DNA of 64,000 nucleotides from Pleionea litopenaei (lineage in GTDB: Bacteria > Pseudomonadota > Gammaproteobacteria > Enterobacterales > Kangiellaceae). Below are positions 52,890-61,219 of this stretch, piece by piece (positions within the stretch are counted from its first letter, which is position 1; every line of letters starts with the position of its first letter). The stretch covers positions 1,986,501 through 2,050,500 of the forward strand of contig NZ_CP133548.1 in the NCBI RefSeq assembly GCF_031198435.1. Reading direction: 5' to 3'. The position numbers were made by a program, and so were the translations under genes. The notes beneath the pieces are model-generated. The model had not been told where the DNA came from. It saw nothing but the letters and a program-made list of their open reading frames with translations, and ran no database searches.

Positions 52890-54164
52890 TTGAAAATAAG
52901 TGATACTTCAGGTCAAGATACGATTATCGCGTCAAATAGTGGACATCGTCGTTGGTGGTACATAGGAGGAATGTCAGCCGTTGTCATTACGCTCATTGTA
53001 CTTGCCACACCGTTTATTTCGCGCTGGGCGAAAGCCGAACACAGCGTCTCTATGGAGCGAATACGAATTGCTAGCGTTACTCGAGGCGATTTCGTTCGAG
53101 ACATTTCTGTGCAAGGAAAAGTCGTCGCGGCAGTCAGTCCAACGCTTTACGCCACCAGTGATGGCACCGTCCAATTCCATGTACAAGCAGGCGAAAGCGT
53201 AAAATTAGCACAGCCACTAGCAACCGTCGACAGCCCCGAGCTATCTAATCAACTCGAGCAAGAACAAGCTTCCCTTGAAAGTATGGAAATTGATGAAGAG
53301 CGACAATCAATTCAAACTAAAAAGCAAGCACTCGAAAACCAAAAGACCGTTGATCTAGCCAAAGTAACCCTCAATGCAGCAGAACGCGAAATGCGACGAG
53401 CAGAACAAGCGTGGCAACGCAAAGCGATTTCAACCATCGATTATGAAAAAGCCAAAGATGATTTACAAAATGCTCAACTCGCTCACCAGCATGCGATTGC
53501 CGATGCCAAACTCAATCAAGAAAGCCTAGCATTCGAGCTAAAGACCAAACGCTTAGCGGTACAGCGTCAGCAATTATTGGTAGCAGAATTGCAACGTCAA
53601 AAGGCATCGTTGCAGTTGTTATCTCCAGTTGAAGGCATTGTCGGCCAACTGATTGTTGAACAGCGCACCGCGGTCAGTAAAAATCAGCCAATCATTTCTG
53701 TGGTTGATTTGAGTCAGTTTGAAGTTGAAGTTCAGATACCTGAATCTTACGCCGACGACTTAGCCATTGGAATGGACGCAGAAGTTCAAAACAGTGGTCA
53801 AGTGTTCAATGCACAGCTGGTTTCAATTTCACCCGAAATTCAAGACAACCAAGTGGTTGGCCGTATTCGCTTTCATAATCAGATTCCACAAGGGTTACGA
53901 CAAAATCAAAGGTTAACCACTCGCATTCTTCTTGAGTTAAAGAAAGACGTATTAATGGTTCAGCGAGGACCATTTTTAGATGCCGGTGGTGGCCGTTTAG
54001 CTTATCGAGTCAACAACGATATTGCTGAGAAAGTATCTATTGAGACCGGTGCTCGTAGCTTGTCGCAAGTTGAAGTGCTGAGCGGCTTAAGCGCTGGCGA
54101 AAGCATTATTATTTCAAACACAGAATCTTTTGAAGGCGCAGAAAACGTCTTGATCAACCGATAA
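52890..54164 (+). CDS. HlyD/MacA-like periplasmic adaptor (424 aa)
   Basis: The adaptor subunit of an ABC-type tripartite export system. One N-terminal membrane anchor (GGMSAVVITLIVLATPFIS, about residues 27-45) is followed by a lipoyl half-motif (GTVQFHVQAGESVKLAQPLA), a long coiled-coil hairpin (residues about 125-235) and the second lipoyl half (LLSPVEGIVGQLIVEQRTAV), then a beta-barrel. The start is TTG behind GGGGGGA. The neighbouring ATPase and two FtsX-type permeases complete the complex, and TolC could be the outer channel. Confidence 0.88.
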   Translation: MKISDTSGQDTIIASNSGHRRWWYIGGMSAVVITLIVLATPFISRWAKAEHSVSMERIRIASVTRGDFVRDISVQGKVVAAVSPTLYATSDGTVQFHVQAGESVKLAQPLATVDSPELSNQLEQEQASLESMEIDEERQSIQTKKQALENQKTVDLAKVTLNAAEREMRRAEQAWQRKAISTIDYEKAKDDLQNAQLAHQHAIADAKLNQESLAFELKTKRLAVQRQQLLVAELQRQKASLQLLSPVEGIVGQLIVEQRTAVSKNQPIISVVDLSQFEVEVQIPESYADDLAIGMDAEVQNSGQVFNAQLVSISPEIQDNQVVGRIRFHNQIPQGLRQNQRLTTRILLELKKDVLMVQRGPFLDAGGGRLAYRVNNDIAEKVSIETGARSLSQVEVLSGLSAGESIIISNTESFEGAENVLINR

Positions 54165-54180
54165 ATTAGAGGAATTTAAC

Positions 54181-54894
54181 ATGCTAAAAATGACCAATAT
54201 CAAGAAAGTATTCCGAACGGAAATCGTTGAGACACATGCGCTTAGAGACTTTTCACTTACCGTTAACGAGGGCGACTTTGTAGCCGTTACAGGACCTTCA
54301 GGAAGCGGAAAGACAACCTTTCTAAATATCGCGGGTTTACTCGAAACATTTTCCTCAGGGCAATATTTTCTCGACAATGTCGATGTAAGTAACCTTAATG
54401 ATAACCAACGTTCGAAACTTCGAAATGAGAAAATCGGATTTATCTTTCAAAGTTTCAACCTGATTCCAGACTTAAACCTTTTCGATAACGTTGATGTTCC
54501 ACTCCGTTATCGAAAAATGAATCGTCAAGAGCGCAAAGAGCGTATAGAGCACGCATTAGAAACGGTTGGTTTAGCGGCACGTATGAAACACCTTCCAATG
54601 CAACTCTCTGGCGGCCAACAACAGAGGGTGGCCATAGCACGCGCACTTGCCGGGGAGCCGCGTTTTTTACTGGCAGACGAACCAACCGGAAATCTAGACT
54701 CAGCGATGGCTGAGAGTGTTATGCAGCTTCTCGAGTCAATCAATCAATCTGGAACCACCATTATTATGGTAACCCATGATCCAAAGCTTGCAGAGCGAGC
54801 ACCTCGCAATATTTTCGTTAAAGATGGAGAAGTTTCAGAAAAATTAAAGTCATCTCCAAAACCCACTAAAGAAGCTGTATCGGCTTTAGCATAA
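54181..54894 (+). CDS. ABC transporter ATP-binding protein, MacB/LolD type (237 aa)
   Basis: The cytoplasmic ATPase of the export complex. It has Walker A (GPSGSGKTTFLNIAG, about residue 40), signature LSGGQQQRVAIARALAGEPR, Walker B (FLLADEPTGNLDS) and the switch His (IIMVTHDP). Members of this group power MacAB- or LolCDE-like mechanotransmission rather than substrate passage through their own pore. It is 16 bp downstream of the adaptor gene and ten bases upstream of the first permease. Confidence 0.95.
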   Translation: MLKMTNIKKVFRTEIVETHALRDFSLTVNEGDFVAVTGPSGSGKTTFLNIAGLLETFSSGQYFLDNVDVSNLNDNQRSKLRNEKIGFIFQSFNLIPDLNLFDNVDVPLRYRKMNRQERKERIEHALETVGLAARMKHLPMQLSGGQQQRVAIARALAGEPRFLLADEPTGNLDSAMAESVMQLLESINQSGTTIIMVTHDPKLAERAPRNIFVKDGEVSEKLKSSPKPTKEAVSALA

Positions 54895-54904
54895 GGACAA
54901 CTAA

Positions 54905-56218
54905 ATGTTTAAATACTATTTAAAGTTAGCCCTGCTCTCGATTAAACGCACACCGATACTTACCTTACTAATGGTCTCTGCAATTGGTGTGGGTATTGGA
55001 GCGTCTATGACTACGATCACGGTCAACTATGCGATGTCAGGCAATCCGATCCCTGAAAAAAGTGACCAGTTGTTTGCGATTCAATTAGATACATGGGATC
55101 CAAACGACCCCTTTCGTGAACCCAATTTACCACCGGATCAATTAACCTACCTCGATGCAACGGCTTTGATGAGAAGTGCTCCTGCAGAAAAGCAGACGGC
55201 CATGACCAAAGTCTACGGCGTTATTGAGCCTGAAGGCGAAGACACACTACCAATAGAAGCAACCGGCCGCGCAGCTTTTGGGGATTTTTTTAGCATGTTC
55301 AAAACGCCTTTTCTTTTTGGTGGAGCATGGAATCGTGATGTCGATAATAATGAACAAATGGTGACGGTTTTAAGTCGAGAAATGAATGATAAAGTTTTCG
55401 GCGGCGAAAATTCAGTTGGAAAATACGTAACTATCGGCGGTCAAAGTTATCAAGTTGTTGGTGTCTTGGATGACTTTTCCCCTGTACCCAAATACTACGA
55501 CGTAACCAATGGACCATTTAACGATCCTGAAGATTATTATATCCCTTTTAACCTCGTTGCCTCACAGCAGCTCGATCGCTCAGGTAATACTAACTGTTGG
55601 AAACCGAACTCTGAAGAAGGCTGGCAGGGTTTCTTAAACTCTGAATGTGTATGGATTCAGTTTTGGGCCGAGCTACCCACCAAAGCCGATCAAGAAAACT
55701 ACTTATCCTTTTTAAATGATTACGCGAAGCAGCAAAAAGAACTGGGGCGTTTTCCACGACCTCTTAATAATAAAATAAATAACGTAATGGAGTGGTTAGA
55801 GCAACAAGAAGTCGTCTCAGAAAATGCGCAAGTGGTTATGTGGCTTTCGGTTATGTTTCTTGTTGTTTGTTTGTTAAATACGATTGGAATTCTATTAACG
55901 AAGTTCTCGACGAAAGCTGCAGAAATCGGTTTGCGTCGTGCGTTGGGTGCGAGTAAGTCAGCTTTGTTTATTCAACACTTGTTCGAGTCAGCGATGGTTG
56001 GATTTGCCGGGGGACTGCTCGGTTTGGCTCTCGCTTTTGGCGGGCTGCAAGGCGTTCATGCACTGTTCGGTGATGATTTTGACCAACTCGTGCAACTCGA
56101 TTTTGTAATGGTCACCAGCGCCATTGTTCTGGCGATTATTTCAGCGTTGCTTGCCGGCATCTACCCTACCTGGCGCGCCTGTAATATTCAGCCAGCAGTT
56201 CAACTTAAGACTCAATAA
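54905..56218 (+). CDS. ABC permease, MacB/FtsX type, first subunit (437 aa)
   Basis: One N-terminal membrane helix (residues about 18-40, ILTLLMVSAIGVGIGASMTT) is followed by a large periplasmic MacB_PCD-like domain to about residue 310. Three C-terminal FtsX helices (VMWLSVMFLVVCLLNTIGIL, MVGFAGGLLGLALAFGG, VMVTSAIVLAIISALLAG) and the LRRALGASKSALF motif follow. It pairs with the next gene to form a heterodimeric permease. The exported substrate is unknown. Confidence 0.9.
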   Translation: MFKYYLKLALLSIKRTPILTLLMVSAIGVGIGASMTTITVNYAMSGNPIPEKSDQLFAIQLDTWDPNDPFREPNLPPDQLTYLDATALMRSAPAEKQTAMTKVYGVIEPEGEDTLPIEATGRAAFGDFFSMFKTPFLFGGAWNRDVDNNEQMVTVLSREMNDKVFGGENSVGKYVTIGGQSYQVVGVLDDFSPVPKYYDVTNGPFNDPEDYYIPFNLVASQQLDRSGNTNCWKPNSEEGWQGFLNSECVWIQFWAELPTKADQENYLSFLNDYAKQQKELGRFPRPLNNKINNVMEWLEQQEVVSENAQVVMWLSVMFLVVCLLNTIGILLTKFSTKAAEIGLRRALGASKSALFIQHLFESAMVGFAGGLLGLALAFGGLQGVHALFGDDFDQLVQLDFVMVTSAIVLAIISALLAGIYPTWRACNIQPAVQLKTQ

Positions 56219-56227
56219 GGATTGACC

Positions 56228-57439
56228 ATGGAATTTAGACCTATTTTAAGCGCCCTAAAGCGCAATAAAACCGGGGCAATTTTAATTGCAGCGCAAATGG
56301 CATTAACCATGACCATTATTGTGAATGCGGTTTTCATGATTAATGAACGACAATCGCAAATGGATCGACCGAGCGGTCTTGATGAGAGTAATGTTTTTGT
56401 TTTTGGATACAGTGGCTTTGCCAAAGACTTTAATGAAAGAGTTCAACTGCAAGAAGACTTAAACTACATTCGAGGGTTGCCAGGCGTGGTTGATGCCGTT
56501 CAAAGTAATTCAGCACCACTGATTGGCGGTGGTTGGTCAATGAGCCTTAACACTGAAAGTAACAGCGATACCAATGGCACTGGAACGGCGATTTACTTTG
56601 CCGATCACCATGGTATGGATGCATTTGGTTTAAAACTCATTGCCGGTCGAAACTTTGAGCCCAATGAAATCACCTGGCGTGGCAGAACATCCACCAGTTG
56701 GCCGGGGCAAGGTATCATTACTCAAGAACTAGCCAAACAATTGTTCAAAGACGATTGGCAAAATGCCATTGATAAGACGGTCTATATTTCTGACGATCAA
56801 CCGATAAAAATAATTGGCATTATTGAAAAAATGCAAGCTCCTTGGAATGGTTGGCGTGGTCTAGAGCGTAGCTTATTAGTACCACAGCAGACGGAATTTG
56901 GCGGAGCAAGAATCATCGTTAGAACTGAGCCTGGGCAACGCGATCGTTTAATGCGCGAAGTCGAAGAAGGGTTGTTAGCTAATTATAAAGGCCGGTTGAT
57001 CCGTCGAGTTCAAAGTATGGACGATATTCGAGAGCGAAGTTACCGATCACATAATGGTATGAATACGATATTATCGACCTTGGTTATTGCCCTGATTGTG
57101 GTAACGGCTTTAGGCATTGTTGGTCTCGCCAGCTTCAGCGTTAATCGCCGTAGAAAACAAATTGGGACTCGTCGTGCATTGGGTGCTACTAAAATTGATA
57201 TCATGCGCTATTTTTTACTTGAGAACTTTATCATTTCGAGCTTTGGTATCGTTTTAGGTGTAGGAATGACATTAGGCTTAAACATGCTTTTGGTATCGGC
57301 ACTCGATCTGCCACGCATTGATTGGTACTACATTCCCATCGGAATGCTCGCGCTTTGGGTGATTGGGCTTGTTGCCGTTTACGGGCCAGCTCGAAAAGCT
57401 TGCGCAATCTCGCCAGCTATCGCGACTCGGAGTGTGTAA
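56228..57439 (+). CDS. ABC permease, MacB/FtsX type, second subunit (403 aa)
   Basis: Same architecture as the upstream permease: an N-terminal helix (AILIAAQMALTMTIIVNAVF-like segment, about residues 18-38), a periplasmic domain and three C-terminal helices after the RRKQIGTRRALGATKIDIMR motif. I chose the ATG at 56228 with AAGGA upstream, although a TTG two codons earlier is possible. It ends the four-gene operon, followed by a terminator at 57464-57493. Confidence 0.9.
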   Translation: MEFRPILSALKRNKTGAILIAAQMALTMTIIVNAVFMINERQSQMDRPSGLDESNVFVFGYSGFAKDFNERVQLQEDLNYIRGLPGVVDAVQSNSAPLIGGGWSMSLNTESNSDTNGTGTAIYFADHHGMDAFGLKLIAGRNFEPNEITWRGRTSTSWPGQGIITQELAKQLFKDDWQNAIDKTVYISDDQPIKIIGIIEKMQAPWNGWRGLERSLLVPQQTEFGGARIIVRTEPGQRDRLMREVEEGLLANYKGRLIRRVQSMDDIRERSYRSHNGMNTILSTLVIALIVVTALGIVGLASFSVNRRRKQIGTRRALGATKIDIMRYFLLENFIISSFGIVLGVGMTLGLNMLLVSALDLPRIDWYYIPIGMLALWVIGLVAVYGPARKACAISPAIATRSV

Positions 57440-57463: not shown

Positions 57464-57493
57464 CAAAAAAGGCCTCATATGAGGCCCTTTTTA
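57464..57493. terminator. Bidirectional terminator
   Basis: AAAAAAGGCCTCA and TGAGGCCCTTTTT around a TA loop form a strong stem between the export operon and the convergent receiver gene. Confidence 0.9.
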
Positions 57494-57512: not shown

Positions 57513-58769
57513 CTACCTTACTTGCAAAGCAACATCGCTGACACCGGTAATATCGTAATTATTAGCGAACAAAGGAACCGCAACAACACTCATTTCTGTT
57601 TCAACACAGTTACCTTCTTTATCGAACATAGAATACACATCTTTATACTGAGGTTTATAATCATCCGGCGTGTACATCAGCTCTCCATTACTTGAAGTAA
57701 AAATATACCCAGCTTCGCTTTCTACAAAACGCGTACCAAAACATCCTTGAGCAGCGAAATACAAAGGCCCAATATAGGCTTCTATTTCGCCTTCATTTAA
57801 ATTAAAAAAGTAACCTGTGTTGGTTCGAGCTCGCAATGAAGATTTATCCATTGAAAAGCTAACAATTTTCGCCACTGGCTGACCACTTTGATCATAAATT
57901 TGAGTCGGTCGATTTGGTGACTCAGTTATCTTTTCACTTATTTCTACATTGTCTTTAACCAACTCACTCTGCTTTTGAGTCAAATCAATTAATTGCGCTA
58001 ACATACTTTGCTGTTTAGATTCTAATTGAGTAGCAAAGTGTTTGATTGAATACCACTGTGTTGCAAAAAATCCACAGACTATCAACAGAACGACACTTAA
58101 ACTGATGGTCAGTCGTCGATGAAATTGAATTCGACTCCACTCATAAGATGCCGCTAGAGCATCTTTTTCAGCTTGTAGCTGATTGACCAATTGCTTTTGT
58201 TGTTGCATGTGAAAGCTCAAACTGTCGCGATACAACTTTTGACTGTTTTGCAGCATTTCTTCACGTGTTTCACGCGTTGAATGATCGAGTCGATAAGCCA
58301 AACTTGGCATTATCTTATTTTCTAGAAATGACTCGAGCCACATTTGCATGCGCTGCTCTTGCATAACATCGTCACTGGTCTCTTGTGTACTTTTATCAGC
58401 CACCAAACGATGTTGAGATAAGACTTGCTTCAACGCTTGCAGTTCGAGTGTTTTAGAAACCACGCCGTTAGCACCAGCCTTCGCGACTTGTTCTTGATAT
58501 TCGTTGCCACTCTTTGCCGTAAACATATAAATTGGCGTCGCAGCAAAATTCGGCTGTTCCTTAATGATCTCTACGGCCTCTAAACCATCCATATCGGGCA
58601 TCGAATGATCCATAAAGATAATGTCTGGTGTATGACTCTCTAAATAGGCAAGACCTTCTTGTGCGCTATGAACTGACTGACTACTTATACCGAAGCGCTT
58701 CAATAGCCGTCCTAAAACCGCACAAGCCGCCTTTGAGTCATCCACGATTAATGCGATGATTTCGTCCAT
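57513..58769 (-). CDS. Membrane-anchored receiver-domain protein (418 aa)
   Basis: The N-terminal receiver domain (residues about 4-120) has the acidic pocket ALIVDDSK, the phospho-acceptor Asp54 in IIFMDHSMPDMDG and the Thr and Lys switch residues (MFTAKSG, VSKTLE). A coiled-coil region leads to one membrane helix (about 221-245, ISLSVVLLIVCGFFATQW). About 170 predicted periplasmic residues (TGYFFNLNEGEIEAY, QGCFGTRFVESEAGYIF) follow, with no kinase or DNA-binding domain. I chose the ATG at 58767-58769. Its partner is unknown. Confidence 0.85.
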   Translation of the reverse strand: MDEIIALIVDDSKAACAVLGRLLKRFGISSQSVHSAQEGLAYLESHTPDIIFMDHSMPDMDGLEAVEIIKEQPNFAATPIYMFTAKSGNEYQEQVAKAGANGVVSKTLELQALKQVLSQHRLVADKSTQETSDDVMQEQRMQMWLESFLENKIMPSLAYRLDHSTRETREEMLQNSQKLYRDSLSFHMQQQKQLVNQLQAEKDALAASYEWSRIQFHRRLTISLSVVLLIVCGFFATQWYSIKHFATQLESKQQSMLAQLIDLTQKQSELVKDNVEISEKITESPNRPTQIYDQSGQPVAKIVSFSMDKSSLRARTNTGYFFNLNEGEIEAYIGPLYFAAQGCFGTRFVESEAGYIFTSSNGELMYTPDDYKPQYKDVYSMFDKEGNCVETEMSVVAVPLFANNYDITGVSDVALQVR

Positions 58770-58956
58770 GATAGACATCCCTATCGGGTTATCGAGTGAT
58801 ACGATGGATTTTGAAGCTTAAAGGCGGTGTTGTTTGAGAACCAGTTAACACAACCGATGTAAATTTAACCAATTGCATTTTTTCTTCTCTCTTAGAACCG
58901 AAAGATATACTATCAATAGCACCGCTACTTTATGTCATATTTTATGGAAGAAAATT

Positions 58957-60134
58957 ATGTCGAAATACTGCATTAGCATTCAAGCATCCAACTGTTTTCT
59001 AAATAACGATCGCTTGGCATCGTTGCCTGTGAAACCTCAAGATTCATCCGATGGGTACTTTTTTACAGTAAATTTAACCGTCTCTGCAAATACGGATGAA
59101 GAGGCACAAGATGTAGCTTTACAGCTACTGCAAGACGATCAAACATTGATTGACTTGGTTATTAATCCGTTAGATATTGAGTTTGAAATTACCGGCATTG
59201 ATACCTTCGCAGATACGGCACCCATTGATGAACTTCCCTTGAATATTAATCGTTATACATTTCGTCCGATGGAACTGTTGCACACTAAACCTAAAAAGCC
59301 ACCAAGACCCTTTGGCGATGTTTCAATAAAAGATTTAAAAATATGTTTGAACAGTTTAGTCAAGAGTTTGAAAGTATGGCGGCTGAGTTCGATCCCAGCG
59401 AGTTTGAAGATGACTACGAACATGAAGCGTTCGATTTTGATCAATCAAAACCGGTTAAGCAACATCTTCATGAAGCGCAGAAGCCTGCTTTTATTTTTAG
59501 TGCACAAAAGCAACAATCAGTTCAAGACTACTCGACTAAACTTCGAGGAACGCCTTGGTGGCCCATAGGCACAAGTCGTCCATTAGACTCAAATGCAGAG
59601 CCTATGCAGTTTATCGGACAAATTAACCTTTCCGATCTATCGGATTTTGCCAGTACTTCGGGAACTCTAGTCATCCATATGGCAGACCAACCTTACGCTC
59701 CAAACGGCGATCTCAATGTATTAGTTAATTTCTTTGCGCATTCGATCGAACCAGACAATATTATTAGCGATGCCGAATCTCATTGTCTCAATAAAATTCC
59801 ACTAAAATCATTGCTTGATTTAAGTTCATCATGGGCTGATGGGCTTTCTCGAGCCTATTACGGCGATGATGACAATGATGAGTTCTACCCCATTTACCAA
59901 CGTTATCAGCAGATAGATTTTGAAAGTGGTCCGTGTGGCGGTTCTTTTCTTGGCGTTTATCCACAGTGGTGGCAAGATCCAGAAGAGCCATTATCGTCAG
60001 ACGGAGAGCCGATGAAGTTTGTTGGCTATTTAGGCATGCTAGAAGATGGAGTGCCGGTTGAAAATATGTATATTTTTGCCGATGACTCGAACCCATCTGC
60101 TCCGTTATTTTCTATTGTTTTCCAAGGTACTTGA
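58957..60134 (+). pseudogene. DUF1963-like gene with a probable one-base frameshift
   Basis: Two overlapping frames form one product if one A is added to the A5 run at 59337-59341. The first frame (MSKYCISIQASNCFLNNDRL) runs to SIKDLK. The second continues MFEQFSQEFESMAAEFDPSE to the stop at 60134. The C-terminal part (GTPWWPIGTSRPLDSNAEPM, QFIGQINLSDLSDF, later DGEPMKFVGYLGML) resembles DUF1963/YwqG proteins. The corrected length is 392 aa. GGAAG precedes the ATG at 58957, and no ribosome binding site precedes the second ATG. Real decay or a homopolymer sequencing error is possible. Confidence 0.65.
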
Positions 60135-60286: not shown

Positions 60287-61219
60287 ATGGAAATACTTAT
60301 CGCCTTGGTCGGCTGGTTTGCTTACGCTTCGGTCGCGATTGGTTTTATCAAGTCGTACTTAACCGTGAATAAGATTTGGTCTCGCAAACATGACCAGAAT
60401 GTCGCAGAAAGTATCTCAGTTTATGCAGCCATATTAGGTCTTATCTCGGCTCTGCCTTTCTTCATAAAATATTTAATCATTGACCAAGATTATGCCAGTG
60501 CCTTACAAACCGGAATTGGTCTCTTAGTCGGCTCATTCTTTTTCTTAGTAGGCATCGGCTTTTGGACGAAGCAAAAATCTGAGAAGCGCAGTATTTGGCA
60601 ACGATTTATTAGGGCGATCAAGAAAGAGAATGACGAAGCAACGGACCTAATTAAAGCTTTAGTAAAGCCCAAACATGCGGAGCGAATAAGTAAAATATTT
60701 GTTCAATTAGCCCTAATTGACGGCCGTATCGATGATGCTGAAAAAGAGTTGTTAGAGTCATTTCACAAACTATGGAAGTTAGACATTGATATAACAAACC
60801 TAAAATCAACGAATCAAACCTTAAGCTTCATGGAATTGCGGGATTCTGTTGTGGACTATTTAGACTATGCGCCACCGGTTGAACAAGCCGCTGAGGTTAA
60901 AGCGTTGCTCGAGACCATTGCAAAAGCTGACAATCAAGTTTCCGATGATGAAAAGTTCATCTTAGATGAAATTTATAATGTGTTTGAAGATTACTTGAAC
61001 GGTGAGGAAGATCTGCCAAAATATGAAGTCTTAATTGCACCTCAGAATCAAGATCAAGAAACCATGATCGAGCGGTTAATTCCTGACTTTACTAAAGTCA
61101 CGGATAAAGGCGGCGTTTGTTACCGAGTCGGTGAATATTATTCTTTGAACTATGCGCAGATGATTTGCCAAAAATACCGCAGCATGAATATCTTTACAGC
61201 CATTGAGCAAGCAAACTAA
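60287..61219 (+). CDS. Membrane protein with TerB-like domain (310 aa)
   Basis: Three hydrophobic helices in the first 95 residues (about 3-20, 45-63 and 75-95) are followed by a cytoplasmic helical domain. Its LVKPKHAERISKIFVQLALI followed by DGRIDDAEKELLESF, and later IAKADNQVSDDEKFILDEIY, are the two paired acidic motifs of TerB/DUF533-like proteins (D-G/D-N...E). Such domains are linked to tellurite resistance, metal sensing or stress. The function here is unknown. It stands alone on the + strand. Confidence 0.78.
   Translation: MEILIALVGWFAYASVAIGFIKSYLTVNKIWSRKHDQNVAESISVYAAILGLISALPFFIKYLIIDQDYASALQTGIGLLVGSFFFLVGIGFWTKQKSEKRSIWQRFIRAIKKENDEATDLIKALVKPKHAERISKIFVQLALIDGRIDDAEKELLESFHKLWKLDIDITNLKSTNQTLSFMELRDSVVDYLDYAPPVEQAAEVKALLETIAKADNQVSDDEKFILDEIYNVFEDYLNGEEDLPKYEVLIAPQNQDQETMIERLIPDFTKVTDKGGVCYRVGEYYSLNYAQMICQKYRSMNIFTAIEQAN

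Follow-up and report, generated by a model that had tools for sequence, protein, structure and literature searches.

A receiver domain joined by a single membrane span to a predicted periplasmic two-cysteine domain in Pleionea litopenaei: a possible outward-signalling response regulator

Sequence and structural model together show that a 418-residue protein of Pleionea litopenaei begins with an intact receiver, from which a flexible linker leads into a long helix that holds a single membrane span, and that it ends in a folded domain containing two invariant cysteines. Its gene occupies 57513..58769 on the minus strand of the window, the whole stretch of 64,000 nucleotides that was analysed (NZ_CP133548.1, positions 1,986,501 to 2,050,500), and has homologues in 20 of 149 relatives, its own genome included. 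The reading that we favour, at somewhat less than even confidence, is that of an orphan transmembrane response regulator signalling outwards across the inner membrane. The sequence-only reading of this DNA had proposed a one-helix membrane protein with a receiver and no kinase; in this it was right, and Pfam, hydropathy and the alignment of homologues agree. The layout is a conserved architecture and is not peculiar to one genome.

A single open frame fills positions 57513-58769 of the minus strand, and the plus strand there is crowded with stops. In-frame ATG codons lie at 58778 and 58769, the former adding three residues; the start at 58769 is preferred because it is preceded, at a distance of 9 nt, by AGGG. 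A weak terminator-like hairpin (57471..57486, no strand assigned) lies between the response regulator gene and a convergent exporter permease gene; the scan returned two such hairpins in the region against 1.5 expected by chance. In the convergent segment, 52890-57439, genes for an RND/HlyD-type adaptor and an ABC ATPase stand in a row with two frames of permease type, of which the second is MacB/FtsX by Pfam. Divergent from the response regulator gene are two plus-strand frames that overlap, 58873-59568 and, with DUF1963 at E 7e-6, 59343-60134; they look like one frameshift-split gene or like a short upstream gene. The protein encoded at 60287-61219 has hydrophobic segments at its N-terminus and a domain that is TerB-like (E 1.2e-5).

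The receiver domain (residues 4-120; 58410..58760, on the minus strand like all protein features given below) matches PF00072 at E 2.4e-25 over residues 7-117, and in Foldseek it matches CheY-type structures, the best being CheY4 of Vibrio cholerae (E 1e-9). D10, D11, D54, T84 and K106 are invariant in the alignment of 20 homologues; the protein has what marks a response regulator, namely PF00072 with an acidic pair, a phosphoacceptor aspartate, a threonine or serine and a lysine. Asp54 (codon 58608..58610) is the predicted phosphoacceptor, invariant in the 20 homologues and in 21/21 receivers of the type B and type C relatives described below. It is from these invariant catalytic residues that support comes for a protein that can be phosphorylated. 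None of the five Pfam families listed for the protein (E up to 1) is a kinase family, and the listing contains no HAMP, GGDEF, EAL or DNA-binding family. No family besides PF00072 reaches the cut-off, which leaves no catalogued output domain, whether DNA-binding, enzymatic or other. A HisKA/HATPase_c kinase core is absent from the chain according to Pfam and the full-length alignment of 20 homologues.

The unusual layout, and nothing else, could speak for the remnant or misassembly of a hybrid histidine kinase, through a frameshift or a lost kinase, or for a chance fusion, and we consider this highly improbable. A frameshift hiding a kinase domain, which the sequence-only reading had named as a way in which it could be wrong, was looked for, and 20/20 aligned homologues end with the same domain. 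The hidden kinase was rejected on the stops that fill the plus strand, on the lack of a Pfam kinase family and on the 20 homologues that align without such a region. The full-length layout is moreover identical in 21 genomes, the receiver is N-terminal here whereas that of hybrid kinases is usually C-terminal, and in one close homologue pair (L018/L019) a pN of 0.046 against a pS of 0.475 indicates purifying selection on the gene.

Hydropathy scanning finds one strong span at residues 220-238 (58056..58112; hydropathy 2.09), followed by 180 residues; the next separate window (1.39) is at residue 4, within the receiver. The top window falls at the same place in the 20 aligned homologues and reaches at least 1.69 in 19 of them, L027 having only 1.28. 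In the 15 residues on each side of the span, lysine and arginine are more frequent on the N side in 20/21 homologues, with one tie (totals of 74 on the N side vs 26 on the C side; the 21 are the 20 aligned homologues and L050). The topology that had been supposed is upheld, in that the single span, the charge bias and the exported relatives of the outer domain indicate an N-in/C-out orientation; bias and exported relatives support a predicted placement of the receiver inside, and of the C-terminal domain outside, the inner membrane.

The full-length AlphaFold2 model, built on 20 homologues (mean pLDDT 84.1), consists of the receiver, a disordered linker at about 125-137, a helix at 135-273, a loop at 273-285 and a beta domain. 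Since its pTM is 0.33, the relative placement of these parts and the oligomeric state are not fixed by the model. In the flexible linker (residues 121-134, 58368..58409) pLDDT is below 50 at 125-137, and the continuous helix (residues 135-273, 57951..58367), which would begin in the cytoplasm, cross the membrane and reach the periplasm, has block pLDDT values of 88-94 over 161-250. Among the 20 homologues the length between the alignment columns of L117 and P155 ranges from 37 to 88 residues; the stretch from receiver to helix is constant, at 37-39 residues, in the protein itself and its four nearest homologues. The earlier claim of a coiled coil between receiver and membrane stands as far as a long helix is predicted, but not as to heptads: the score of the cytoplasmic part is reached by 920/1000 shuffles, which is no heptad signal, and that of the periplasmic part by 37/1000, which is borderline. 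Dimerisation through the cytoplasmic helix is therefore unsupported, and the variable linker and the missing heptad signal together leave rigid transmission through a coiled coil without support. It is possible that receiver dimerisation or partner binding affects the pairing of the helices.

Modelled alone with AlphaFold2, the outer part of 131 residues (288-418, 57516..57908) gives a confident beta domain with a pLDDT of 95.2 and a pTM of 0.86, which fills in the C-terminal region for which structure prediction had been proposed. Exactly two cysteines lie beyond the span in 21/21 homologues, spaced 44 or 45 residues apart. In the alignment of homologues they are the invariant Cys343 (codon 57741..57743) and, 45 residues on, the invariant Cys388 (codon 57606..57608), which we predict to be disulfide partners; C343, S380, C388 and T408 are the invariant residues of the outer domain among 20 homologues. 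Comparison of the fold gave no confident match, with best Foldseek E values of 0.23 (PDB) and 0.054 (BFVD) and a best VIA-align Z of 3.6 over 47 residues at 2.7 A, and a missing match is no proof that the fold is new. Pfam searches with the outer domain of 20 members returned stray matches only, at E 0.032 or worse, and the domain as a single sequence had no match in plasmid or phage collections. A match of the outer-domain profile to an nvBagel4 chain (E 0.00057) was taken as chance, as it spans 25 profile positions and related cell-surface chains score 0.02-0.37.

The distribution of the layout, which we call type A, was traced with the region after the receiver as query among the 149 relatives. 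This region was found in 20 of them, its own genome included, and all 20 have the full layout; with one case from a survey of the class, the architecture that the sequence-only reading had suggested searching for is present in 21 genomes. With the outer-domain profile, 394 genomes of the order gave the same 20 and a lipoprotein (G095); 369 genomes of the class gave the own genome, another full-length protein (G162) and two that are exported; and 398 genomes of the phylum gave the own genome and three exported proteins. A scan of genome contigs gave five loci, of which L029-L031 belong to genomes already counted; L032 and L033 were dropped as matching through the receiver only, L032 being a multi-domain sensor kinase by sequence. 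The gene is patchy, and is absent from one complete genome of the same genus (G002) and from many genomes of the same family.

The surveys of class, order and phylum thus hold outer-domain matches in receiver-less proteins of six other genomes. By eye, all six begin with a signal sequence or a lipobox, and they keep both cysteine motifs; four match at E 6.1e-6 to 5.5e-10, and the weak ones, from the 369-genome search, are L051 at E 1.8e-4 and L052 at E 0.00165 per genome. These small exported proteins or lipoproteins with a match to the type A outer domain are encoded at L051, L052 and L074-L077. Receiver-less exported matches with both cysteine motifs make the outer domain look like an independent exported module.

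A wider family was sought with profile A4, which represents the receiver alone, in 229 genomes of the class at E 1e-22, and 67 genomes had a match. A line at 100 bits, drawn after the scores had been seen, left 31 rows above it, of which 29 were fetched and read (L078-L106). In 28 of these 29 loci one hydrophobic span (at least 1.61) follows the receiver, in 2 of type A, 14 of type B and 12 of type C; L093 (222 aa) is the only one that has no span. The sole locus fetched below the line, L107 (91 bits), is a 1900-aa frame that does not have such a layout. We propose that a membrane-anchored receiver subfamily be defined by an A4 score above 100 bits and one span, both of which the present protein has: it scores 179.2 bits, and the best of the 52 other receiver matches in its genome scores 80.2. 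As a control, 29 of those 52 were fetched, and none has a span after the receiver, although 15/29 have at least 19 residues there; the highest hydropathy after the receiver among them is 1.28, equal to that of L027.

Type B proteins (L079, L080, L082-L092 and L097, L081 not being among them, with L080 cut by a contig end) carry a different region of 200-228 residues after the span, in which two cysteines are exactly 21 apart in 14/14. Their outer domain, of about 150 residues with a W-N...N-R motif near the end, has no significant match in Pfam or among PDB sequences. Its pattern resembles that of OmpA-like domains and such a fold was suspected, for which Pfam and PDB sequences offer nothing in support. 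The lysine and arginine bias of type B is N-in in 8/11 and the reverse in 3/11, weaker than in type A. In type C proteins (L094-L096 and L098-L106) the receiver is followed by a long region rich in charges and then by a tail anchor, and the chain ends 0-8 residues past the span. The 11 type B and 10 type C sequences tested keep the catalytic residues of the receiver, with one serine for threonine (L102). Compared as profiles, the outer domains of types A and B are not similar (hhalign probability 0.1%). A tree of 68 receivers (123 columns, 20 forks open, arbitrary root) has type A as one clade (99/99) and joins A and B on one supported branch (99/87), outside which lie type C and the receivers of the own genome. 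The outputs of response regulators evolve by exchange of the modules attached to a conserved receiver. With caution, the receiver tree and the dissimilar outer domains may be read as an exchange of the outer domain while receiver and span stayed.

These relatives bear on a reading that we regard as a serious contender, though still clearly below even probability, in which the protein is a membrane-tethered docking switch. Phosphorylation would cause a cytoplasmic partner to be recruited or released, the helix would be a spacer, the outer domain would only fix the protein to an envelope structure or to a site in the cell, and nothing would pass outwards. The common core of the three kinds is indeed receiver, spacer and span, and 12/29 fetched loci have a tail anchor only; it follows that not all members of the wider subfamily have an output in the periplasm. 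Linker length varies and the linkers are flexible, and the tail-anchored receivers fall outside the branch that holds both kinds of outer domain. Yet a span alone would be enough for tethering, and the outer domain of type A is conserved (C343, S380, C388, T408), has its own fold and is found elsewhere as an exported module. The conservation of the outer domain, its separate export and its exchangeability make us favour inside-out signalling, and the docking role is given nearly equal weight because type C has no outer domain. Outward signalling or anchoring, the alternatives offered from the sequence, are still the right pair of hypotheses; the variable linkers (37-88) and the tail-anchored relatives would favour a tethering component.

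The proposed search for the architecture and its neighbours found the layout elsewhere, but no orthologous neighbour that is common across genera. None is common to most of the 18 type A loci or of 17 loci from the receiver survey, mostly of types B and C, and in the same two sets no orthologous periplasmic partner gene recurs across genera beside the response regulator gene. A conserved operon was rejected, since recurrent neighbours in the 18 type A loci are limited to single genera, the GGDEF group aside. Exporter permeases are near the gene in 3/18 type A loci, all of the same genus (the others being L029 and L034), and aldolase and phosphoglycerate kinase genes in 5/18, again of one genus (named for L036). 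Pairs of type A loci share S8 peptidases (L030, L048), M13-type peptidases (L034, L044) and other groups. The only function that recurs across genera is that of a single-linkage group, taken to be GGDEF or GGDEF-EAL proteins, which has a member no more than about 9 kb away in 7/18 type A loci (L030, L031, L036, L038, L040, L041 and L048). Five members tested by Pfam are GGDEF or GGDEF-EAL proteins with differing PAS, TPR or no other domains, in differing places. As such proteins are common and may occur there by chance, their nearness is kept as a lead only. In the 17 receiver-survey loci (the receiver gene not being called in L115) non-receiver groups recur in at most two; one such group, whose member in L110 is a GGDEF-EAL protein, adjoins the type B gene in L110 and is near it in L112.

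The HATPase match closest to the gene in its own genome is about 35 kb away, among 50 HATPase matches that are not all kinases. With this distance and no common neighbour, the phosphodonor probably acts in trans. Orphan two-component genes are numerous according to the accessible part of a marine bacterial survey (PMC6365647), in keeping with the missing neighbouring kinase. The nearest other receivers of the genome are the ChpA receiver (80.2 bits), that of a 921-aa hybrid-type frame (80.1) and a PilH-like receiver (79.4). As the 921-aa frame scores the same as the ChpA and PilH-like receivers, no pairing follows. A ChpA-type cluster in the genome is confirmed by Hpt, HATPase, CheW, CheR and PilJ families; we take its genes to be PilG, PilH and ChpA from families and gene order. 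PilJ (PF13675) is found in 39/40 genomes of the family, with or without the response regulator, and in view of the tied receiver scores and this near-universal presence the Pil-Chp link is only a lead. The PilG/PilH-like genes lie in a separate cluster (G000:C1:2609385-2610156), so that our regulator is not located with pil-chp. Pil-Chp receivers (PilG, PilH, the ChpA receiver) resemble it in being among its nearest in the genome, but each is either a soluble receiver without other domains or belongs to a CheA-type kinase.

Possible donors also enter into a second alternative, which seems to us unlikely, that the protein is an outside-in modulator or phosphate sink whose periplasmic domain senses redox state or, through its cysteine domain, a ligand and tunes the uptake of phosphate by the receiver from membrane kinases. 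A disulfide-capable outer domain would suit a sensor, the receiver is intact with no classical output domain, and some of the 50 HATPase matches could feed it. Sensors, however, are usually on kinases, the flexible linker hampers conformational control of the receiver by the outer domain, and the simplest account of a conserved cysteine pair in an exported domain is a structural disulfide.

Under the inside-out signalling that we prefer, kinases or phosphotransfer proteins encoded elsewhere would phosphorylate Asp54, and phosphorylation would alter self-association of the receiver or its binding of partners at the membrane face. The pairing of the transmembrane helices would then shift and change binding by the putatively disulfide-bonded periplasmic domain. 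The output would lie outside the inner membrane, and the periplasmic domain would be the exchangeable output module of the family.

Searches of the literature for membrane-anchored, membrane-bound or transmembrane response regulators, covering few subscription journals, returned only the archaeal MetOD3 case. A search on two-component systems in Kangiella turned up no paper with this subject in its title. The accessible part of its source describes the MetOD3-REC-MetOD2 response regulators of Methanoregula as membrane-anchored receiver proteins (PMC5847659). They are like ours in joining a receiver to a membrane-anchored extra domain and in their narrow lineage distribution. They differ in being archaeal, with MetOD3 N-terminal and MetOD2 C-terminal to the receiver, and that part of the description mentions no periplasmic cysteine domain (PMC5847659); MetOD2 (PF18548) is not in the Pfam listing for our protein. 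A precedent for outward signalling is LapD, which the accessible part of its source describes as an inner-membrane inside-out receptor for c-di-GMP, which receives its signal on the cytoplasmic side and has its output in the periplasm (PMC3032545). LapD reads c-di-GMP, whereas our protein is a phospho-receiver, and HAMP and degenerate GGDEF-EAL domains of the LapD type are not in its Pfam listing. With soluble CheY-type response regulators it shares the receiver fold and catalytic residues, but it differs from them by its membrane-crossing helix and by a domain placed outside the cytoplasm.

The usual view of response regulators, with few exceptions, is of soluble proteins whose targets are DNA, enzymes or partners in the cytoplasm. 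If the proposal is true, two-component phosphorylation could be spent directly in the periplasm, or phospho-switches would be deliberately fixed at the envelope, and proteins known to domain libraries by the receiver alone would gain a searchable function. The modular layout, with one receiver subfamily and a varied or no outer domain, makes phospho-dependent output directly testable. The related loci suggest a broader, little-studied family of membrane-spanning switches. It is conceivable, though we would put it well short of even, that there exists in Gammaproteobacteria an as yet undescribed class of two-component outputs, in which transmembrane regulators would send a phospho-signal outwards through exchangeable disulfide-stabilised modules, with their kinases encoded elsewhere and tail-anchored members acting at the membrane.
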